This document shows positions 3,074 through 39,778 of a stretch of 42,785 nucleotides of DNA, in pieces. The stretch comes from Spirochaetales bacterium Spiro_03 (GTDB lineage: Bacteria > Spirochaetota > Spirochaetia > Sphaerochaetales > Sphaerochaetaceae). The DNA lies in contig LVBE01000085.1 in the NCBI GenBank assembly GCA_001603105.1, positions 1-42,785 on the forward strand, in the 5' to 3' direction. The first letter of the stretch is position 1. Each line of letters opens with the position of its first letter. The position numbers and the translations under genes are program-made. The notes beneath the pieces were generated by a model, which saw nothing but the letters and a program-made list of their open reading frames with translations, made no database searches and was not told the DNA's origin.

Positions 3074-3349
3074 ATGGAGTACTTGACCATTGGGCAGGCC
3101 ATCAAGGCCTTGAGACAAGAGCGGGCGATGACCCAAGAGCACCTGATCGAGCAGGCGGACCTGAGCCGCAGCCAGCTCTACTACATCGAAAGCGGGAAAA
3201 AATCCCCCAGCCTTCCAACGATCTACGCGATCTGTTCGGCGCTGGGGGTCTCATTCTATGACCTGGTCTCAACGATGTACCGCCCCCCTCAGGGTTCGGG
3301 CACACCGAGCATCTCGTCGATCGGGGCTCCGGGGGCGACCATCGGATAG
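3074..3349 (+). CDS. XRE-family helix-turn-helix regulator
   Basis: GQAIKALRQERAMTQEHLIEQADLSRSQLYYIESGKKSPSLPTIYAICSALGVSFYDLV; internal ATG (MEYLTIG) preferred over the track start at 3026. Confidence 0.8.
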   Translation: MEYLTIGQAIKALRQERAMTQEHLIEQADLSRSQLYYIESGKKSPSLPTIYAICSALGVSFYDLVSTMYRPPQGSGTPSISSIGAPGATIG

Positions 3350-4965
3350 ACCTTGTCGTCCAACGGGATCTCGCAGTCGACCAGCACCGCCTCCCCAAGG
3401 GCCAGAGCTGAAGAGAGCACCGCCTTTGGATCGTCATCCTTGCCAAGGCGCATCCCCTTCACCCCGTAGGCAGCGGCGAGGGCGACCCAATCGATATAGG
3501 TATCAAGCGTCGTTTCACTGTAGTTGCCATCGAAGAAGAGGGTCTGCCACTGGCGTACCATCCCAAGCGTCTGGTTGTTCATCAACAGGATGATCACCGG
3601 AAGGCGATAGCGGGCGATGGTGGCAAGCTCATTGCAGTTCATTCTGAAGGAGCCGTCACCGGCTACGTTGACCACCCGGCTCTTCGGATTGCCTACCTGT
3701 GCCCCGATAGCCGCCCCGGTTCCGTAGCCCATCGTACCAAGCCCACCGCTGGTCAAAAAATGCCCCGGCTGCACGTGTTTGATGAACTGGGCCGCCCACA
3801 TCTGGTGTTGGCCTACCTCGGTGACGATGTAGAAGTTCTCAGGCAGCAGCGACTGCAGGGCCTTGAGGATCTCCTTGCTGCGGGCGCTCTCGTTGTCGAC
3901 CCTGATCGGATACCGACGCTTGTAGTCGGCGACCTGCTCCATCCAGCGCGCGTGGGAGAGCGGGCTCTTCAACTGTTCATTGAGAGATGAGAGGACGACC
4001 TTCACGTCGCCGACGACGTTGCAGTAGCTTTTGATGTTCTTGTCGATCTCAGCGGGATCGACATCGATGTGGATGATCTTGGCGTTCTTGGCAAATGAGG
4101 AGGCCTTGCTCACCACCCGGTCGCTGAAGCGCGCCCCGATGACTATCAAGAGGTCGCACGCCGAGACGAGCATGTTGCTGACCTTGGTGCCATGCATCCC
4201 CACCAGCCCGGTATACCGTTCATCGAGGCTGCTGATCGCCCCACAGCCCATCAGGGAGGTACAGGCAGGGCTATCGATGAGGTTGAGGAAGAGGGCAAGC
4301 TCCTCGCTCGCCTTCGCCCTGATGACGCCGCCTCCGACGTAGCACATCGGCCGCTCACTGCCCTTGATCAGGGCGAGGGCGGTCTCCAGGCTCTTGGTGC
4401 TGAGTCGATCGATGCGTGGTTTGACCTGCTCAATCTCGACTCGTTCATAGTCGGTGGTGTGGACGGTGATGTCCTTGGGCAGGTCGATGAGTACCGGCCC
4501 GGGCCTCCCCTCCTGGGCGATCTTGAAGGCTAGGCGCATCGTCTCGGCGAGCGTGGTGACATCCTTGACGATGAAGTTGTGCTTGGTGATCGGCATCGTG
4601 ATGCCGGTGATGTCGACCTCCTGAAAGCTATCCTTCCCAAGCAAAGGGACGGTCACATTGCCGGTAAGGGCGACCATCGGCACGCTGTCCATGTAGGCGG
4701 TGGCGATGCCGGTCACCAGGTTCGTCGCCCCCGGCCCACTGGTAGCCATACAGACGCCGACCTTGCCGGTCGAGCGTGCATAGCCATCGGCAGCGTGGGA
4801 TGCGCCCTGCTCGTGGCTGGTCAGGATGTGGCGGATCCGGTCCCGGTTCTGGTAGAGAGCGTCGTAGAGTGGCAGCACTGCACCTCCTGGAAACCCAAAG
4901 ACCGTATCGACTCCCTGTTCAACCAAACACTCTATGATGATCTGTGCTCCACTGATGTGCATCAT
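3289..4965 (-). CDS. ilvB: Acetolactate synthase large subunit
   Basis: ThDP enzyme: GFPGGAVLPLYDAL, HEQGASHAADGYARSTGKVGVCMATSGPGATNLVTGIA; RBS AAGGAGA precedes ATG at 4965. Confidence 0.95.
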   Translation of the reverse strand: MMHISGAQIIIECLVEQGVDTVFGFPGGAVLPLYDALYQNRDRIRHILTSHEQGASHAADGYARSTGKVGVCMATSGPGATNLVTGIATAYMDSVPMVALTGNVTVPLLGKDSFQEVDITGITMPITKHNFIVKDVTTLAETMRLAFKIAQEGRPGPVLIDLPKDITVHTTDYERVEIEQVKPRIDRLSTKSLETALALIKGSERPMCYVGGGVIRAKASEELALFLNLIDSPACTSLMGCGAISSLDERYTGLVGMHGTKVSNMLVSACDLLIVIGARFSDRVVSKASSFAKNAKIIHIDVDPAEIDKNIKSYCNVVGDVKVVLSSLNEQLKSPLSHARWMEQVADYKRRYPIRVDNESARSKEILKALQSLLPENFYIVTEVGQHQMWAAQFIKHVQPGHFLTSGGLGTMGYGTGAAIGAQVGNPKSRVVNVAGDGSFRMNCNELATIARYRLPVIILLMNNQTLGMVRQWQTLFFDGNYSETTLDTYIDWVALAAAYGVKGMRLGKDDDPKAVLSSALALGEAVLVDCEIPLDDKVYPMVAPGAPIDEMLGVPEP

Positions 4966-4975
4966 GGTCTCCTTC

Positions 4976-6670
4976 TTATCGATTCTCCACGATCGCTCCG
5001 CTGGCAGCGCTGGAGACTGCCCTGGCGTAGCGAGCGAGGTAGCCGTGTTCAATCTTGCTCTTCGGCGCCTTCCATGCCGCACGGCGCTTCTTCAGCGTCG
5101 CCTCATCGACGAGCAAGTCGATCGTCCGATTCGGGATATCGATGGTGATCAAATCCCCTTCTTCAACGAGGGCGATCGGCCCTCCTTCGGCGGCCTCGGG
5201 GCTGATGTGGCCGATCGAGGCACCACGGGTCGCTCCACTGAAGCGGCCGTCGGTGATCAGGGCGACATCCTTGTCGAGCCCCATACCGGCGATTGCGCTG
5301 GTGGGGGCGAGCATCTCTGGCATCCCCGGCCCTCCCTTCGGCCCCTCATAGCGAATCACAACCACATCCCCTGCCTTAATCGAGCCAGAGAAGATTGCCT
5401 CGTTGGCCTGATCCTCGCTTTCGAAGACCCGTGCCGGACCGGTGTGGACCAGCATTGCCTCATCGACGGCGCTCTGTTTGACCACCGCCCCATCGGGGGC
5501 GAGGTTGCCCCTCAGCACCGCGATCCCGCCGGTCTTCGAATAGGGGTCCGAAAGGGGGCGGATGACCGCTTGGTCGGTCACCGCCTTGTCCATGCACAGC
5601 TCTGCCACACTCTTGAGACTGACAGTGGGAAGGCTCGCATCGATGAGACCTGAGCGGGCTAGAAGTCCGAGCACCGCCTGGATGCCGCCTGCGTGGTGCA
5701 AGTCCTCGAGGTGGTGCTCCCCTGCAGGGGCGAGGTGGCAGAGGTTGGGGACCTTTGCACTGACCTCATTGGCCTCGAAGATATCGATGCTCACTCCTGC
5801 CTCATGGGCGATCGCCGGCAGGTGCAACATCGTATTGGTCGAGCAGCCCAAGGCCATGTCGACAGCCAGGGCGTTGGCGAAGGCAGCCTTGGTCATGATG
5901 TCCCGTGGCCGTACATTGGCGCGCAGCAGCTCCATGACCTGGTAGCCGGCCTCCTTGGCCAAGCGGATGCGGGCGCTGTAGACAGCCGGGATCGTCCCAT
6001 TGCCAGGCAGGCCCATCCCGATCGCCTCGGTGAGGCAGTTCATGCTATTGGCCGTGTACATGCCGCTGCACGATCCGCAGGTCGGGCAGGCGTTGTCCTC
6101 GTAGGCCAACAGCTGCTCGTCGCTGATCAGGCCAGCGCTGTGGGAGCCGACCTTCTCGAACATCACCGAGAGGTTGGTCTTGCACCCACCCTCTGAGTCC
6201 ATCGTGCCGGCGAGCATCGGCCCGCCGCTGACAAAGATCGAGGGGATGTTCAGCCGGGCGGCTGCCATGAGCATCCCCGGAACGATCTTGTCGCAGTTGG
6301 GGACGAAGACCAGGGCATCGAAGGGGTGTGCCATCGCCATGATCTCGATCGAATCGGCGATGATCTCGCGGCTGGGCAGGCTGTAGCGCATACCCAGATG
6401 TCCCATGGCGATGCCGTCACAGACCCCGATGACAGGGAAGGAGACCGGATTCCCTCCTGCCTGCCTCACCCCTGCCTTCACTGCATCGACGATTGTATCG
6501 AGGTGGATGTGGCCAGGAATGATCTCGTTGGCCCCACTTACAATGCCGATGATCGGCATGTGGATCTCCCGATCCGTCCAACCAAGCGCCTTCATCAGCG
6601 AGCGGTGGGGGCTGCGCTGCACCCCTTCGGTCATCGCACTCGATCGTCTCTTCATCTCATCCATATCCAC
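4976..6670 (-). CDS. ilvD: Dihydroxy-acid dehydratase
   Basis: [60 protein letters not shown]. Confidence 0.96.
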
Positions 6671-6681
6671 ACTCCTATCTC

Positions 6682-7743
6682 CTACAGGGCTTGGGCGATC
6701 CGCTGGCCCATCTCCTTGGTCCCGACCTTGATCATCGACTCTGAGTAGATATCAACGGTCCGATACCCTTGGTCGAGTACTGCTTCGATGGCCGCCTCCA
6801 CTGCCTGCGCCTCACCCTCCATGCCGAAGCTGTGGCGCAGCATCATCGCCACCGACAAGATCATGGCGATCGGGTTGGCCAAATCCTTGCCGGCGATGTC
6901 GGGAGCGCTGCCGTGGATCGGCTCATACATGCCAAACGAATCCTCCCTCAGGCTCGCTGAGGGCAACATCCCGATCGAGCCGGTGATCTGGCTCGCCTCA
7001 TCGCTGAGGATGTCACCGAACATGTTCTCGGTGACGATCACATCGAACTGGCGGGGATTGCGCACCAGCTGCATCGCCGCGTTGTCGACGTACAGGTGGG
7101 TCAGCTCAACATCGGGATACTCGGCGCACAGGGCGTTGGCCACCGCTCGCCACAGTTGGCTGGAGGAGAGGATGTTCGCCTTGTCGACGCTACACAGGCG
7201 CCGAGAGCGCTTCTGGGCGATCTCAAAGCCTTTGCGCAGGATCCGCTCAATCTCCGCCCGTGTATAGCTCATCGTATCGTATGCGCTCTCTTCATCACTG
7301 CCGCGTGCACCGAAGTAGATGCCGCCGGTGAGCTCACGCACCACCATGATGTCCAGCTGCTCACCGACGACCTCTGCCTTCAGGGGGCAGGCGCCGCTGA
7401 GCTGCTTGTACATGATCGCCGGCCTGAGGTTGCAGAAGAGGCCGAGCCCTCCTCTGAGGCCGAGCAGTCCCTTCTCCGGTCGCAGGTGCGACGGCAGCGT
7501 ATCCCACTTCGGTCCGCCGAGGGAGCCGAGCAGGACCGCATCACTGTCTTGACAGCCTTTGAGGGTACTGTCCGGCAGCGGGGTATTGTAGGCATCAAGG
7601 GCAGCTCCGCCTGCAAGGTACTCGACGATCTCAAAGTCGTGGCCAAAGCGCTCTGCCACCCGCTTGAGCACCTTCACCGCCTCGAAGGTGATATCCGGAC
7701 CGATCCCGTCTCCACTGATGACCGCGATGCGCTTCTTCATCAC
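6682..7743 (-). CDS. leuB: 3-isopropylmalate dehydrogenase
   Basis: [50 protein letters not shown]. Confidence 0.96.
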
Positions 7744-8234
7744 ACACCCTCCTTCTGTGCCATATAGGCAGCAAGGCCGCCTGCAGCGATGAGCTCTTGC
7801 ATGAAGGGCGGGAAGGGTTCGCTTTGAAAGACCTGGGAGGTGGTCATATTGGTGATCGTGCCACTGTCAAAGTCAACTTGGACGCGGTCCCCTGCCTTGA
7901 TGGAAGCCGCTGCCTCTTCGCACTCAAGGATCGGCAGGCCGATGTTGATCGCATTGCGATAGAAGATCCGGGCGAATGAGCGGGCGATGACGCAGCTGAC
8001 GCCGCTCTCCTTGATGGCGATGGGGGCGTGCTCGCGGCTGGAGCCACAGCCGAAGTTCCGGTCGGCGACAATGATGTCACCCTTCTGCACCGTTTTGACG
8101 AACTGGCTGTCGATATCCTCCATGCAGTGAGCGGCGAGCTCTGCGTGGTTGGCGGTATTGAGGTACCGCGCCGGAATGATGACGTCGGTGTCGACGTTGT
8201 CCCCGTATCTGAAAACACTTCCTTCTGCTACCAT
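7740..8234 (-). CDS. leuD: 3-isopropylmalate dehydratase small subunit
   Basis: [33 protein letters not shown]; start at internal ATG 8234. Confidence 0.95.
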
Positions 8235-8235
8235 G

Positions 8236-9504
8236 CTAGGCCTCCATGACGTTCTTGGGATCTGCGATATAGCCGGCCACGGCACTGGCGGCGGCTACCG
8301 AGGGGCTGGCGAGGTAGACCTCGCTTTTCGGGTGGCCCATACGTCCGACAAAGTTGCGGTTGGTGGTGCTCACCGCCCGCTCCCCTTCGGCGAGGATTCC
8401 CATGTGCCCACCCAGGCACGGTCCACAGGTAGGGGTCGAGACGGCACAGCCGGCATCGACGAAGATATCGAAGAGTCCCTCGGCCATCGCCTGCTTCCAG
8501 ATCTTCTGCGTCGCCGGGAAGATCAGGGCCCGCACATGGGAGGCAACCTTGCGGCCCTTGAGAATCTGGGCAGCCTGACGTAGATCGTCGATGCGTCCGT
8601 TGGTGCAGGAGCCGATGACGACCTGGTCGATCCGGATCTCGCCCACCTCATCGATGGTACGGGTATTGGAGGGCAGGTGTGGGAAGCTGACGGTGCTCTT
8701 GATCGTCGACAGGTCGATCTCATACGTCGCATCATATTCGGCGTCGCTGTCCGCCTCATAGATGCGCACCTCTTTCTTGTAGTGTTCGTCCAGGTAGGCG
8801 AGAGTCACCGCATCGACGGGGAAGATCCCGTTCTTCGCCCCTGCCTCGATGGCCATGTTGGCGACGGTGAAGCGGTCGTCGATAGAGAGGTTCGCCACCC
8901 CCTTGCCGGTGAACTCCATGCTCGCATACAGCGCTCCATCGACACCGATCATGCCGATGATGTGCAAAATGAGGTCCTTGCCGCTGACGTAGGGACCGAA
9001 CGCTCCGCTGAGGTTGAACCGTATCGCGCTGGGAACTTTGAACCACGCCGTGCCGCTGGCCATGCCTGCGGCCATGTCGGTGGAGCCGACACCGGTTGAG
9101 AAGGCGCCAAGCGCCCCGTAGGTGCAGGTGTGGCTATCGGCGCCGATGACCAGATCCCCGGCTCCGACGAGCCCCTGCTCTGGCAACAGGGCGTGCTCGA
9201 TGCCCATCTGTCCTACCTCAAAGTAGTTGGTGATCGCATGCTCGCGGGCAAAGGTACGCATCGCCTTCGCCTGTTCGGCCGCCTTGATGTCCTTGTTCGG
9301 AGTGAAGTGGTCGGGCACGAGGGCGACCTTCTCCTTGTCAAAGACCGTCTTCTTGCCAAACTTGGCAAACTCATTGATGGCTACCGGGGCGGTGATGTCG
9401 TTTCCGAGCACCAAATCCAGATCGGCCATGATCAACTGGCCGGCCCGCACGCTCTCAAGGCCTGCGTGCGCTGCCAGGATCTTCTGTGACATAGTCATTC
9501 CCAT
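8236..9504 (-). CDS. leuC: 3-isopropylmalate dehydratase large subunit
   Basis: aconitase family: [50 protein letters not shown]. Confidence 0.95.
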
Positions 9505-9519
9505 GGGGCAACTCCTCTC

Positions 9520-11112
9520 TCATTCATCGGACGGCTCGATGCCGTCGGCTATCAACTTATACTCGATGCTATCACTTAAGGCAAACCAGCTCGCCTCGAT
9601 GATGTCCCGGCTCACCCCGATCGTCGACCAGGTGTTGACCCCGTCGGTCGATTCGATGAGGACACGGACCTTGCTCGCCGTAGCTCCTGCGCTGTCCAGC
9701 ACCCGCACCTTGTAGTCGGTCAGGTGTACGCTCTTCAGACTCGGGTAGAACTGCTCCAATACCTTGCGCAGCGCCTTGTCCAGTGCGTTGACCGGCCCCT
9801 CTCCCTCAGCGGCGGTGATGGCGCTCTCTCCGGCGACCTTGACCTTGACCACCACGGCGTGGCTGGCATCGCTGAGCAAGTCGACATACGGGCTCGATCC
9901 GATGGTCTGGTAGTGCACAAGGCTGAAGTACGGCTTGTACATGTTCAGGTGTCGACGGATGACCAGGTCAAAGGAGGATTCAGCACCCTCGAACTGGTAG
10001 CCCTCAGCCTCAAGGCGCTTGAGCTCATCCATCAGGCTGACGGTCACCGGGTCATCCTTGTCCAGGTGCGGGGCGACGCGGGCGATGCGCTTGAGCATCA
10101 AGGCGCGCCCGGCGACTTCGCTCATCAATAGCCGCCGTTCATTGCCGACCGTCGCCGGATCGATATGTTCGAACGAGTGGGGATTCTTCTGCACCCCATC
10201 GATGTGCATCCCGCCCTTGTGGGCAAAGGCGCTGCGCCCGACAAATGGGGTGCGCCCGCTGATGCGCACATTGCTGATCTCAGCGACCTTGCGGCTGATG
10301 CGCGTCAACTGCTCCAAGTTTTCGCCATTGAGGCAGCGTATGCCCATCTTCGTCTCAAGGATTGCGATGATCGAACTGAGGTTGGCGTTGCCGCAGCGCT
10401 CTCCGAAGCCGAGCAGCGTCCCCTGCACCTGTGTCGCCCCACCCTCGATCGCCGCGATCGAGGAGGCGACGCCGCAGCCGATGTCGTCGTGGGCATGCAC
10501 CCCGATCTCGACGGAGGGAAAGCGCCTCTTCGTCTCTTCGGTGATCGCCCGTACCCGGCTCGGGAGCATCCCCCCCCTCGTCTCACAGAGGATCAGGGCA
10601 GAAGCGCCACCTCTCAATGCCGCCTCAAGTGTCTTGAGGGCGTAGTCAGCGTTTGCCTCGTAGCCATCGTAGTAGTGCTCGGCATCGAAGAAGACTGCGC
10701 TGCCACCTTGTGTGATGAAGCGCACCGAATCCTCGATCATCGCCAAGTTCTCCTCAAGCGTCGTCTTGATGATGTCGGTGACGTGAAAGTCCCAGCTCTT
10801 GCCGAAGATCGATACGACCTTCGTTTGGGCCTTGGTGAGGCTGATGAGGTTGGCGTCCTCGCTCGCCTCGATCCCTTTGCGCCGTGTCGAGCCGAAGGCT
10901 ACGATCGTAGCGTGCTTCAGCTCTAGGCGCTTGGCCTCCTCGAAGAACTCAAGGTCCTTGGGGTTTGAGCCCGGGTTTCCGGCCTCGATGTAGGAGATGC
11001 CCAGACTATCGAGGCTCTGGACGATCTTCAGCTTGTCGGAGACCGAGAAGCTGATACCCTCGCCCTGGCTGCCATCGCGCAGTGTTGAGTCAAAGATCGC
11101 GACCCTAGCCAT
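9520..11112 (-). CDS. cimA: (R)-citramalate synthase
   Basis: FDSTLRDGSQGEGISFSVSDKLKI, long HMGL-like plus LeuA dimer domain; start ATG at 11112. Confidence 0.88.
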   Translation of the reverse strand: MARVAIFDSTLRDGSQGEGISFSVSDKLKIVQSLDSLGISYIEAGNPGSNPKDLEFFEEAKRLELKHATIVAFGSTRRKGIEASEDANLISLTKAQTKVVSIFGKSWDFHVTDIIKTTLEENLAMIEDSVRFITQGGSAVFFDAEHYYDGYEANADYALKTLEAALRGGASALILCETRGGMLPSRVRAITEETKRRFPSVEIGVHAHDDIGCGVASSIAAIEGGATQVQGTLLGFGERCGNANLSSIIAILETKMGIRCLNGENLEQLTRISRKVAEISNVRISGRTPFVGRSAFAHKGGMHIDGVQKNPHSFEHIDPATVGNERRLLMSEVAGRALMLKRIARVAPHLDKDDPVTVSLMDELKRLEAEGYQFEGAESSFDLVIRRHLNMYKPYFSLVHYQTIGSSPYVDLLSDASHAVVVKVKVAGESAITAAEGEGPVNALDKALRKVLEQFYPSLKSVHLTDYKVRVLDSAGATASKVRVLIESTDGVNTWSTIGVSRDIIEASWFALSDSIEYKLIADGIEPSDE

Positions 11113-12724
11113 CGATGGCCTCCTTCTTCTTGTCGGAGTGGGAACTGAGCATGTCATTTGCAAAATTCGGAGCCGATGTCGGTTTCACTGAACCGCTACG
11201 GGAGAGCGAGGCCTCGTCGAGCATCCGGTTCACAGCGGCAAGGCAGCTGAGGATCGAGGCTTCGATGACATCGGTCGACACACCCCGGCCACGGTAGATG
11301 CCGTGCCCGTCGCTGATCTTCACAAAGACCTCTCCGAGTGCGTCGCGATGCTCGGTCACCGCCTGCAGTGTGTAATCCTCCAAGCTGAAGGGGTGGCGGA
11401 TGATCTTCTCCACTGCCCTGAGGCTTGCGTAGACCGGCCCGGTGCCACGCGCGACCTCCTGGTACTTCTTATCGCCCTTGCGCAGCGTCACGCACGCGGT
11501 CGAGGTCATCAGGTTGCCGCTGTTGACGACGAAGTTGTCCAGCTCCCAAACCACCGGGGAGGTTTGGGTGGTGCTCTCCACCAAGGCGATGAGGTCGCGG
11601 TCGCCGACGGTTTTCTTGCGGTCAGCGAGGTTCTTGAACTCAGCAAAGAGGCTCTTCACCTCCTCCTTGGTCAGTGTGTAGCCAAGCTCGACAAGCCGCT
11701 TCTCAAAGGCGTGCATCCCGCTATGCTTGCCCAGCACGAAGCTGGTGGTCATCACCCCAACACTCTCGGGGGTCATGATCTCATAGGTGAGGCTGTTGGC
11801 CATCATGCCGTGCTGGTGGATCCCACTCTCATGGGCGAAGGCGTTCGCTCCGACGATCGCCTTGCTCGGATTGGCCTTGATGCCGGTGATCTGGCCCAAG
11901 AGCCGGGCACTTTTGGTGATCTCCTCGGTCTTCAGCGCATAGGTAAAGGGCAGTTCGTCGCTTCGGGTCCGGATGGCCATCGCCACCTCCTCGATAGCGG
12001 CGTTGCCTGCCCGCTCTCCGATGCCGCAGAGCGTGCCCTCGATCTGCCGAGCTCCGGCTTTCAGCCCGGCGAGGCTGTTGGCCACCGCAAGGCCCAAGTC
12101 GTTGTGACAGTGCACCGCGATGATCGCCCGGTCGATGTTCGCCACCCGCTTCATCACCGTCCCCACCATCCGCTTCATGTCCTCAGGCAGGGCGTAGCCG
12201 ACGGTATCGGGCAGGTTGACGACACTCGCCCCCGCGTCGATGACTGCCTCAACCACCTCACAGAGGAAGTCCAAGTCGGTTCGGGTGGCATCCTCTGCCG
12301 AGAACTCCACCTCACCGCAGAGATTGCGCGCATAGCGCACCATCTCTGTCGCTTGCATAAGCGCCTGCGACCGGCTCATCTTCAGCTTATACTGCAAGTG
12401 TAGGTCACTGGTGGCCAAAAAGGTGTGGATCCGAGGGCGCTTGGCTCCCTTCACCGCTTGCCATGCTGCGTCAATGTCCTTCTTCAGCGCCCGTGAGAGG
12501 CTGGCCACCGCCGTCTCCTTCAGGATAGCGGCAATGGCCTGGACGGAGGAGAAATCCCCCTCAGATGCTATGGCAAAGCCTGCCTCCAGCACATCCACGC
12601 CGAGGGCTTCAAGCTGTAGGGCCATGCGAACTTTCTCATCGAGGTTCATTGAGTAGCCCGGTGCCTGCTCGCCATCACGCAGCGTGGTGTCAAAGATGTA
12701 GATCCTGTTCTCTTCCATAGTCAT
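11105..12724 (-). CDS. leuA: 2-isopropylmalate synthase
   Basis: IYIFDTTLRDGEQAPGYSMNLDEKV, HCHNDLGLAVANSLAGLKAGARQIEGTLCGIGERAGN, C-terminal regulatory domain. Confidence 0.94.
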   Translation of the reverse strand: MTMEENRIYIFDTTLRDGEQAPGYSMNLDEKVRMALQLEALGVDVLEAGFAIASEGDFSSVQAIAAILKETAVASLSRALKKDIDAAWQAVKGAKRPRIHTFLATSDLHLQYKLKMSRSQALMQATEMVRYARNLCGEVEFSAEDATRTDLDFLCEVVEAVIDAGASVVNLPDTVGYALPEDMKRMVGTVMKRVANIDRAIIAVHCHNDLGLAVANSLAGLKAGARQIEGTLCGIGERAGNAAIEEVAMAIRTRSDELPFTYALKTEEITKSARLLGQITGIKANPSKAIVGANAFAHESGIHQHGMMANSLTYEIMTPESVGVMTTSFVLGKHSGMHAFEKRLVELGYTLTKEEVKSLFAEFKNLADRKKTVGDRDLIALVESTTQTSPVVWELDNFVVNSGNLMTSTACVTLRKGDKKYQEVARGTGPVYASLRAVEKIIRHPFSLEDYTLQAVTEHRDALGEVFVKISDGHGIYRGRGVSTDVIEASILSCLAAVNRMLDEASLSRSGSVKPTSAPNFANDMLSSHSDKKKEAIDG

Positions 12725-12738
12725 CCCCCCATCGGTGG

Positions 12739-14297
<1,559 letters not shown>

Positions 14298-14333
14298 CGT
14301 AATTGTCCGCTCCTTTGGGTATAAGAATAAGAA

Positions 14334-14347
14334 CCCCGGTATCGGGG
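14334..14347 (-). terminator. Candidate attenuator terminator stem CCCCG-ATAC-CGGGG followed by TTCTTATTCTTAT
   Basis: Read on minus strand; 5-bp GC stem then U-rich tract, about 35 nt upstream of ilvN. Confidence 0.5.
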
Positions 14348-14355
14348 AACTTGTA

Positions 14356-14387
14356 CCACGGCCCATGTAGGTATACTACAGCCGTGG
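14356..14387 (-). promoter_or_regulatory. Leader hairpin CCACGGC-TGTAG-TATAC-CTACA-(TGG)-GCCGTGG abutting the leader stop codon
   Basis: 7 bp + 5 bp stem with 3-nt bulge on minus strand; starts at the base after the leader TGA. Confidence 0.65.
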
Positions 14388-14504
14388 TCAGAGAATAATT
14401 AGAATAAGAAGGCTAAGTAGGCAGGAAAGCAGGATTGAGGATGCCGAGGTGATGATCCCTCTGGTCTCTGGTGTCTCTGTGGTGTAGGTGCTGGGCGCTC
14501 TCAC
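14388..14504 (-). CDS. BCAA operon leader peptide VRAPSTYTTETPETRGIITSASSILLSCLLSLLILIIL (38 codons, GTG start)
   Basis: Read by hand: GAGGAG RBS 6 nt before GTG; 12 of last 15 residues are Leu/Ile; TGA stop; too short for the ORF track. Confidence 0.8.
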   Translation of the reverse strand: MRAPSTYTTETPETRGIITSASSILLSCLLSLLILIIL

Positions 14505-14541
14505 AGTGCTCTCCTCAAGACGGTTCGACGACCGTTTCCTG

Positions 14542-14571
14542 TTTTTAGCCCTCTTTTACCCCTGTTGTCAA
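14542..14571 (-). promoter_or_regulatory. Candidate promoter of the BCAA operon: TTGACA-N18-TAAAAA
   Basis: Perfect -35 (14566-14571), weaker -10 (14542-14547), upstream of the leader peptide. Confidence 0.55.
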
Positions 14572-14747
14572 CCCCTTATGCAAAAAAGTGTATGAATATG
14601 CAATGAAATACCCCTTTGAGCGCTCTTCTTGACAACATCGTGGCCCGGACAGGCGAATATTCACGTTCATTTGCCAAGTTCGGTACAAAACAGAGCTCTG
14701 TCGGCAAGATTCTTGTCCCCATCGTGCTTTGGCGGTACACTCGCAGT

Positions 14748-16520
14748 ATGATCAAAGCCAGGATCCCCAGACGACGGCACACTCTGTTTGGCCGTCTCTT
14801 CATCTACTTTCTCATCGTCCTCATCGTCCCGCTAGGCCTCTTTGGCACCTACTATGCGGCCCTTGGGGGGCGAGGACAGGAGCGCTATGTAGCCAACCAG
14901 ACGATGAATTTGGTCAGTTCTGACGCGGCAAAGGTCTCGCGGATCCTTGAGGAGTACCGCCACAAGGCATACCTGATCTCCACCGATGCCCTGGTCGTCT
15001 CCACCGTCGCCCGCGACCGTCTCGACGGGGACTCCGAACTGAGCAGCAACCTCTACCAGCTGCTCTTCAGCGTGATGAAGGGCGATACCTACCTCGCCAG
15101 TGTCAGCATTGTCAGCAACAGCGGGAGGGTGCGCCTCTCCACCCACACCTTCCCCAATGTCTATGACCTACGCTACCACGGCAATAATTGGGATATGAAC
15201 TCAGTCATCGTCCAGCACGCCGACCTCAGTCCCACCGCCTCCATCATCTCCATCAGGGGACACCGGACAGCAGAGAATGGCAGGCAAGTCGTGGCCACGA
15301 TCCTGAGGCGGATCTACGACGAGCAAGGGGTTAACCTCGGCTATCTGATCCTTGACATCTACGCCGAGGCGCTATCATCCCACATCAATGCCGAACGGAT
15401 CCTCACCGACGTGTTGATCTTCGACAACCAAGCCTTCTATGCCACCAGCTTGGTGCACACTGACCGCTACGGGACCTTCGACCTCTTTCCCGCCCTCCTG
15501 AGCCTGAAGGGAGACTACAGCCCACGGGTCGTCGCTACCGGCTCCTCCTTGATGGCCATCACCCCACTGAATGGCACCTCGTTATTTTTGGCTGGAACGA
15601 TCAGCGCAGGGCCGGTGCGCCAGAGCCTGGATCGGATGCTCATCGTCATCGTGGCGACGATGGCCATCGGGACGTTGCTCGCCGTCGGCCTCGCCCTCCT
15701 CTTCAGCCGCGCCATAGCCACCCCGATCTCCACGCTCGCCAGCCGGATGGGCGAGGTGGAACGGGGCAATCTGCAGATCCACCGCATCAAGAGTAAAATC
15801 GACGAGTTCGCACTCCTGGAGCAGTCCTTCAACGTCATGGTCACCCAGATCGTCAACCTTCTTGACTTGACGCGGGAGGAGCAGAAGAAGCTCTCCGATG
15901 CCGAGCGCAAAGCCCTTGAGAGCCAGATGAACCCCCACTTCCTCTTCAATACCCTCAATACCATCAAGGCGTTGGCACGCCTGCATGGCGAAGAGGAGAT
16001 CTACACCATCACCGTCAAGCTCGGAAAATTGCTGCGTTCGACGATCGACAACCATGACAGTGAATCCACCCTCGCCGAATCGATGGCACTCATCGACAGC
16101 TACCTGACGATCCAGAAACTACGCTTCGGCGACAAGCTACACACCCAGATATACCTTGACCCATCCTTGAAGGATGTGAAGACCCCCAAGCTCATCATCC
16201 AACCCTTGGTGGAGAACTCGATCATCCACGGCCTGGAGCCGAAGATCGGCCACTGGTGGCTCTCTGTTCGCATTGAGCACATCGACGACCGTGTGGTGAT
16301 CACCATCGAGGACAACGGGGTAGGATTTGCCGACCAAACGCTGGCCGACCGCCTCGATGAGCTTGCCAACTCAGGACACGTTGGAGTATATAATGTATAC
16401 CGTAGGTTGACCCTCACCTATGGCGATACCTTGGAGTTTTCCATCAAGAGCAGAGCTGGAGAAGGGACGGTGGTGAGGATTTCCTTTCCTGCGGAAGGGA
16501 CAGAGAGGAGCAGTGGATGA
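14748..16520 (+). CDS. Sensor histidine kinase, YesM-type (HAMP, His_kinase, HATPase)
   Basis: N-terminal TM, HAMP region, LESQMNPHFLFNTLNTIKALA, DNGVGF; ATG at 14748 preferred over track start 14616. Confidence 0.9.
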   Translation: MIKARIPRRRHTLFGRLFIYFLIVLIVPLGLFGTYYAALGGRGQERYVANQTMNLVSSDAAKVSRILEEYRHKAYLISTDALVVSTVARDRLDGDSELSSNLYQLLFSVMKGDTYLASVSIVSNSGRVRLSTHTFPNVYDLRYHGNNWDMNSVIVQHADLSPTASIISIRGHRTAENGRQVVATILRRIYDEQGVNLGYLILDIYAEALSSHINAERILTDVLIFDNQAFYATSLVHTDRYGTFDLFPALLSLKGDYSPRVVATGSSLMAITPLNGTSLFLAGTISAGPVRQSLDRMLIVIVATMAIGTLLAVGLALLFSRAIATPISTLASRMGEVERGNLQIHRIKSKIDEFALLEQSFNVMVTQIVNLLDLTREEQKKLSDAERKALESQMNPHFLFNTLNTIKALARLHGEEEIYTITVKLGKLLRSTIDNHDSESTLAESMALIDSYLTIQKLRFGDKLHTQIYLDPSLKDVKTPKLIIQPLVENSIIHGLEPKIGHWWLSVRIEHIDDRVVITIEDNGVGFADQTLADRLDELANSGHVGVYNVYRRLTLTYGDTLEFSIKSRAGEGTVVRISFPAEGTERSSG

Positions 16521-17305
16521 GCTATACCGTAGTGTTTGTCGAGGATGAGCAGATCGTCCGCAAGGAGATTGTCGCCTCGGTGCGCTGGGATCTCTTGGGC
16601 CTGAAACTAGTGGGTACCGCAGCCGACGGCAAAGAAGGAGAAGAGATGATCAAGGCCCTGGAGCCGGACATCGTCATCACCGATATCCGCCTGCCCGCTC
16701 AAAGTGGCTTGGAGATGCTCGCCGCCTGTCCGGTCAACCATGCCATCATCCTTACCGGCCACACCGACTTCTCCTACATGAAGCAAGCCATCCGCCTCGG
16801 TGTCTTCGACTACCTGCTCAAGCCAGTCGATGACGAGGAGTTGGAGGAGACACTCGCCCTCCTGGTCAAGAAGATCCAGGAGGAGGAGAGCGATGTCGAG
16901 CAGCTGAGAAAGCGAGCTGGCACCCACAATGAGTTGATCCCGCTGCCCAGGAACGTGGGAAACCACGTCATCGATGCCACGATCACCTACATTGGGGCGA
17001 ACTATGCAAACCCAGTTGGACTACAGGAGGCGGCATCGTATCTTGAGCTGTCGGAGAGCCACCTCTCGCGCCTCTTCAAGGAGGTCACTGGCTTGAACTT
17101 CCTTCAGTACCTGAATGCGTGGAGGATCAACAAGAGCGTCGCGCTGATGGCCAACCCGACGAAGAACATCGCCGAGGTCGCCCTCGCCTGCGGCTTCCCT
17201 ACCCCTGGGTACTTCGCCAAGATCTTCAAACGCTTCACCGGTAAGACCCCTACCCAGTTCCGTGACGAAGGGGGTACCCTAGAGGGCCAATGGGGCGAAG
17301 GCTGA
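16517..17305 (+). CDS. Response regulator with AraC-type HTH, YesN-type
   Basis: VVFVEDEQIVRKEI, DIVITDIRLP, LKPVDDEEL; C-terminal AraC HTH; 4-nt overlap with kinase. Confidence 0.92.
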   Translation: MSYTVVFVEDEQIVRKEIVASVRWDLLGLKLVGTAADGKEGEEMIKALEPDIVITDIRLPAQSGLEMLAACPVNHAIILTGHTDFSYMKQAIRLGVFDYLLKPVDDEELEETLALLVKKIQEEESDVEQLRKRAGTHNELIPLPRNVGNHVIDATITYIGANYANPVGLQEAASYLELSESHLSRLFKEVTGLNFLQYLNAWRINKSVALMANPTKNIAEVALACGFPTPGYFAKIFKRFTGKTPTQFRDEGGTLEGQWGEG

Positions 17306-39705: not shown

Positions 39706-39778
39706 TCGGGCAGAGAGGATTTGAACCTCCGACCCCTTGGTCCCGAACCAAGTGCGCTAGCCCCTGCGCTACTGCCCG
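39706..39778 (-). tRNA. tRNA-Pro, anticodon CGG
   Basis: Acceptor CGGGCAG/CTGCCCG, anticodon stem CTTGG-TTCGGGA-CCAAG, T-arm GGAGG-TTCAAAT-CCTCT; 73 nt, CCA not encoded. Confidence 0.95.

Follow-up and report, generated by a model that had tools for sequence, protein, structure and literature searches.

The region upstream of ilvN in the window (the whole analysed stretch of 42,785 nucleotides from Spirochaetales bacterium Spiro_03, contig LVBE01000085.1) very probably regulates the ilv-leu operon as a ribosome-mediated leader-peptide attenuator, an assignment based on the anatomy of the region and on its orthology to the leaders of two related genera. Within this class the window would hold a variant that is descended from, and probably works like, a trp/leu/ilv-type attenuator rather than a plain member, because the mutual exclusion of two structures through a shared strand, which is a defining feature of such attenuators, was tested for and is absent from the window. 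We surveyed 139 genomes from 22 genera of the order; ilvN was detected in 12 of the genera, and the sequence before it was collected from 92 genomes (one record entered twice). Genera are labelled g1 (the window's genus), g11, g39 and so forth, and individual leader loci carry L-numbers. The segments are numbered such that 2:3 is hairpin A, segment 3 is the 3' arm of A and 3:4 is the pairing of segment 3 with a downstream segment 4.

Directly downstream of the leader, the Ile/Leu/Val pathway is encoded in one run as a complete ilv-leu operon of nine same-strand genes, ilvN-ilvC-leuA-cimA-leuC-leuD-leuB-ilvD-ilvB (3289-14297, minus strand), assigned by profile matches above cut-off or, for leuD, by sequence:

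13770-14297, minus strand: ilvN, acetolactate synthase small subunit, first gene of the operon (TIGR00119 / PRK11895 above cut-off)
12739-13773, minus strand: ilvC, ketol-acid reductoisomerase (TIGR00465, 466.8 bits)
11105-12724, minus strand: leuA, 2-isopropylmalate synthase (TIGR00973 above cut-off)
9520-11163, minus strand: cimA, citramalate synthase (TIGR00977 above cut-off)
8236-9504, minus strand: leuC, isopropylmalate dehydratase large subunit (TIGR02083 above cut-off)
7740-8285, minus strand: probable leuD, isopropylmalate dehydratase small subunit (leuD-type ORF between leuC and leuB, named from sequence)
6682-7743, minus strand: leuB, 3-isopropylmalate dehydrogenase (TIGR00169 above cut-off)
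4976-6670, minus strand: ilvD, dihydroxy-acid dehydratase (TIGR00110 above cut-off)
3289-5082, minus strand: ilvB, acetolactate synthase large subunit (TIGR00118 above cut-off)

The ilvB of the operon is the single TIGR00118 match in the genome, in which no second acetolactate synthase large subunit was found. The two acetolactate synthase subunits are split, the small one being encoded first and the large one last, approximately 9 kb apart. A divergent sensor kinase and AraC-type response regulator (14616-17305, plus strand) adjoin the operon promoter, a tRNA at 39706-39778 is the sole Rfam match at the gathering score in the window, and comparison with the plasmid collection gave no informative match.

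The elements of the leader region itself are as follows:

14542-14571, minus strand: probable promoter, TTGACA (14571-14566), 18-nt spacer, TAAAAA (14547-14542), from sequence
14511-14516, minus strand: Shine-Dalgarno sequence GAGGAG of the leader ORF, 6 nt before the GTG at 14504, from sequence
14388-14504, minus strand: leader ORF of 38 codons, VRAPSTYTTETPETRGIITSASSILLSCLLSLLILIIL*, start GTG 14504-14502, stop TGA 14390-14388
14356-14387, minus strand: hairpin A, CCACGGC...GCCGTGG (segments 2:3), -16.6 kcal/mol, starting at the base after the leader stop
14356-14362, minus strand: 3' arm of A (segment 3), GCCGUGG, which pairs alternatively with segment 4 in g39 and g11
14334-14347, minus strand: hairpin B, CCCCG-AUAC-CGGGG, a terminator-like stem, core -8.9 kcal/mol
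14318-14333, minus strand: U-rich tail after B, UUCUUAUUCUUAUACC (of which UUCUUAUUCUUAU is 14333-14321), from sequence

Outside the long-leader species, a promoter of the form TTGACA-N16/19-TAxxxx likewise precedes 39 of the 41 leaders from g39 and those of L002, L021 and L022. In the 5'UTR, a potential hairpin ACGGU..ACCGU has an energy no better than that of shuffled sequences.

Fourteen of the 38 leader codons specify Leu or Ile, including the last ones. This composition is shared across the order: 91 of the 92 genomes have a Leu/Ile/Val-rich leader with its own Shine-Dalgarno sequence before ilvN, adjoining a hairpin A of the CCACGG...CCGUGG type, and in the same 91 the Leu/Ile/Val-rich C-terminus is kept. 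The sole ilvN of those examined in the order that has no recognisable leader upstream is L098 (genome G113, g39). A genome of another family (L026) has the same kind of leader before ilvN. The control codons of g1 are also rare ones: over the final 20 codons of 19 distinct leaders from g1, ATT makes up 72 of 90 Ile codons (15 of 208 in eight genes of the window), GTA 33 of 36 Val codons (16 of 218) and CTA 28 of 156 Leu codons (16 of 313), a large shift, although related leaders are not independent. The rare codons ATT, CTA and GTA are thus enriched in g1 leaders, and rare control codons are expected to raise the sensitivity of attenuation to starvation. The theory of attenuation sensitivity is treated in PMC1183508.

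Across g1 the last codons, the stop and the 5' arm of A show near-perfect nucleotide conservation, which together with the use of rare codons argues for selection. A motif spanning the stop and A (ATTATTCTNTRACCACGGC, up to two mismatches) is found at exactly one site in each of 23 of the 26 g1 genomes, with no further copies elsewhere in them; the remaining three, without the motif, are those without a detected ilvN, and a reversed-pattern control for this search gave one match in each of two genomes. The long leaders (L003-L019) begin with a conserved GTGAACGCGTTCAC...GGTGCAG...CACC, which could form small hairpins in the coding part.

Both structures that the initial annotation had placed behind the leader lie where it put them: hairpin A, at 14387-14356 of the minus strand, begins at the base after the stop, and the GC stem with a U-rich tail, here hairpin B, occupies 14347-14334, with a core of 5 bp. 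With an AAG:CUU extension (14352-14350 with 14331-14329) B reaches -12.0 kcal/mol. The region of A and B together folds to -30.8 kcal/mol against -18.6 +/- 2.6 kcal/mol for shuffled sequences (z -4.7, 0/200), and A and B do not overlap, both being present in the minimum-energy fold. Hairpin A is kept throughout the order with a varying inner stem, and covariation is evident by eye in that inner stem within g1 (for example G-C/A-U, C-G/U-A and A-U/G-C in the same columns). Hairpin B lies at the same place in all of g1, and its inner pair, again read by eye, switches among G-C, A-U and U-A; the alternative helix that had been proposed beside them stands at chance level in this genus. A scan for a consensus of B plus a T-run performed at chance level (2 found, 2.7 expected); the core of B is only 5 bp and the U-run is interrupted. 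Termination at B in the window is nonetheless somewhat favoured by us, its U-rich tail making B the likely termination site.

The order-wide comparison strongly favours the view, already put forward tentatively in the initial annotation, that this is a leader-peptide attenuator, and the switch itself is most legible in g39 and g11 (40 and 13 sequences; 53 together, 51 distinct). There, segment 3 (e.g. GGCCCGUGG) has two possible partners, the CCACGG that follows the stop and a downstream segment 4 (CCGCGGGC, CCACGGG, CCAUGGG or CCCGGGC) that is followed by 4-8 U in 8 nt. Both 2:3 and 3:4 are possible in 51/51 distinct sequences, 3:4 is the stronger at the median, and its duplex is more stable than those formed with shuffled downstream sequence (median z -2.7 in g39, n = 40, and -4.9 in g11, n = 13). 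When the 11 nt after the stop are blocked, 3:4 forms with P > 0.8 in 36/40 g39 and 13/13 g11 sequences (49/53 in total); A reaches a median P of 1.0 when the transcript stops immediately after segment 3. These genera are thus predicted to carry a textbook switch of classical polarity, with 3:4 as the terminator and A as the antiterminator; since the terminator competes for the 3' arm of A, A should favour read-through. In g39 and g11 the two codons preceding the leader stop seldom specify Leu, Ile or Val, such that a ribosome stalled on control codons would leave segment 2 free. In most members segment 2 begins 0-5 nt after the leader stop, a placement at which a terminating ribosome, of the generally known footprint length, would mask it. 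The g1 leaders differ in that their control codons continue to the stop (VVSLIIL*), so that stalling on the final two would place the ribosome itself over the 5' arm of A. The supposition that a stalled ribosome covers CCACGGC accordingly holds, for a usual footprint, for the last two or three codons, whereas stalls at earlier codons would leave A free.

Five further genera (g36, g42, g43, g45 and g5) have 3:4 pairing beyond chance, but without a U-tract. In L024, L075, L079 and L084 (g5, g42 and g45), the 3:4 stems are long, with an outer helix of the GCCGAUUC:GAAUCGGU type and no U-tract, an arrangement after the leader stop that constitutes a third layout of the same attenuator.

Within g1, none of the 23 sequences has a 3:4 helix better than chance (window, z -1.4, p 0.09; its 22 relatives, p 0.25-0.9, the sister L002 being at p 0.25), and z is about 0 in most of them. 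A switch in which the whole 3' half of A serves as the shared strand likewise left no z-score signal in this genus, no supported alternative partner for the 3' arm of A was found in the window, and the exclusion of 2:3 by 3:4 is absent throughout g1, where A and B are compatible. Judged from these sequences, 3:4 has decayed in g1 and its downstream stem is now the separate hairpin B. U-rich RNA after B is confined to the window and three relatives (strong in L021 and L022, where a strong stem with U6 occupies the position of B, and moderate in the window and its sister L002); most of g1 has no U-run after B, and AGCAAUCGCUUAUACCC or similar, an AGC..GCUUAUACCC-like sequence, is usually there instead. 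A conserved UAUACCC follows shortly after B in L003-L020 and in L102/L107 (g1 and g41), also in species without a U-run. On a rough ilvN tree, the 3:4 switch was gained or lost in two changes and the U-run in five, g40, which does have a longer helix, being counted among the genera without 3:4. By eye, leader GUAGUAAGC could pair in long-leader species with a conserved GCUUAUAC that follows B; we do not claim this pairing, since its leader side is invariant and it is broken in L013, L020 and L023.

We consider the following full account of the region probable. Transcription would start near 14536, and a ribosome would translate the Leu/Ile/Val-rich leader behind RNA polymerase. Were charged Leu, Ile or Val tRNA scarce, the ribosome would slow on the rare CUA and AUU codons upstream of the stop, hairpin A would fold and the polymerase would read into ilvN; were charged tRNA plentiful, the ribosome would reach the stop and mask the 5' arm of A, and transcripts would end at the downstream terminator, which in the window would be B, 3:4 having decayed in g1. 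The leader, its rare codons, A, B, the operon, the orthology and the 3:4 helix of relatives are features of the sequences themselves, from which we infer ribosome stalling, termination at B and any coupling of A to B in this species. No RNA pairing that couples A and B was found in the window's species. Candidate routes by which stalling might spare g1 transcripts are a helix that encloses B, Rho, or a kinetic effect of A on the polymerase.

A different wiring had been proposed in the initial annotation, in which the default fold consists of A and a terminator B, and a ribosome that stalls over CCACGGC lets CCGUGGUA pair with UACCGGGG, breaking B and permitting read-through. The helix does exist on paper: CCGUGGUA (14361-14354) can face UACCGGGG (14341-14334) in 7 of 8 pairs, with one G-U pair and one G-G mismatch, extending to 10 of 11; the extended helix and extended B, evaluated alone, are equal at -12.0 kcal/mol each, and the last codons of g1 leaders are indeed Leu and Ile. 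However, its duplex energy (-14.3 kcal/mol for the extended helix of the window) is at chance level against shuffled downstream sequence in the window, in the sister and in the other 21 congeners, and in the window's ensemble the alternative pairing has P of at most 0.0032, and B at least 0.997, in every state modelled (0, 6, 10 or 12 nt after the stop blocked). Moreover, the polarity is reversed with respect to g39 and g11, in which the helix at this position is the terminator (3:4 plus U-run) and A the antiterminator. We rejected this helix as a switch on its chance-level energy and ensemble probability, and regard the model as highly improbable. Because blocking the 5' arm of A leaves B unchanged, a simple exclusion between A and B is not seen in the window either. 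Nor do we give much credence to the notion that, in this species, the leader acts on ilvN translation or survives as a relic that regulates little: the loss of 3:4 in g1 and the weakness of B in the window would suit it, but the conservation at the end of the leader and the rare codons across g1 speak against it, and an informal look at the folds revealed no consistent pairing that sequesters the Shine-Dalgarno sequence.

Two other explanations were weighed. The g1 attenuator may no longer be intrinsic, with Rho instead loading on the long C-rich, G-poor leader unless a stalled ribosome covers it, and with B as a pause hairpin. Most congeners lack a U-tract after B, and their leaders run to 55-74 codons, the final 60 nt containing 18-28 C and 3-5 G; leader length and U-run are correlated on raw rows (Spearman -0.69), but this correlation is unsupported after allowing for descent (paired test on the ilvN tree, with too few supported contrasts). 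The C-richness stems in part from Leu and Pro codons, Rho is present in 22/22 genera of the order and its presence hence does not discriminate, and in the window itself the leader is short and B is followed by a U-rich tail; we deem this explanation unlikely. Less readily still would we accept that long-leader congeners switch through a helix around B, formed by the inner 3' arm of A and a short element immediately downstream of B (GAUUGC:GCAAUC in L006, GGUUGC:GCAAUC in L003, UCUGUU:GACAGA in L013). Here own pairs are more stable than swapped ones (mean -5.9 vs -4.7 kcal/mol, permutation p 0.007), but the comparison is post hoc and weakens to p 0.08 when each clade contributes a single sequence, the duplex z-scores lie close to 0, and the helix is missing from L005, L012, L016 and the window (-2.2 kcal/mol).

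A broader possibility, which we entertain tentatively, is that a classical 2:3/3:4 attenuator has repeatedly changed its output device within one order, with the window's species as an intermediate. The lineages with long, C-rich leaders, including most of g1, would then have kept the leader and A, lost the U-tract and the shared strand, and come to control the operon by Rho loading, a B-enclosing helix or translation. The order in any case provides a natural series of unusual clarity, running from a textbook switch to forms with no shared strand and no U-tract, in which the peptide and first hairpin stay fixed, and how attenuators change their output step yet keep control is directly testable in cultured Sphaerochaeta species. 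Branched-chain leader-peptide attenuation would here be a feature of this whole spirochaete order, positioned before the whole ilv-leu operon.

We found no literature on attenuation in spirochaetes, including branched-chain leader peptides, although work in subscription journals may exist. Rfam release 15 gave no leader match (Leu_leader, other cis-regulatory leaders or T-box) at the gathering score in the window, and a search up to E=1 at six loci returned nothing relevant (two irrelevant weak matches). In the enterobacterial ilvGMEDA, ilvBN and leu leaders, which contain Leu/Ile/Val and rare codons, the choice between 2:3 and 3:4 depends on where the ribosome stands; the spirochaete leader resembles these (Rfam Leu_leader and kin) in principle but differs in gene order. 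Outside Proteobacteria, alternative RNA structures linked to leader peptides before amino acid genes are also described for Actinobacteria, a different phylum (PMC1262725). The closest system is the Corynebacterium ilvBNC attenuator (PMC11857589; PMC10272879), which in target and layout is nearest to the g39/g11 form: both have Ile/Leu/Val codons upstream of an acetolactate synthase operon, and in Corynebacterium the antiterminator stem lies next to the terminator stem, and the two compete for a trinucleotide at their boundary. The Corynebacterium model, from another phylum and with another sequence, comprises three hairpins, including an anti-antiterminator, and a 15-residue leader; in the spirochaetes, by contrast, the 5' arm of A begins at the leader stop, and A and B of the window share no supported strand.
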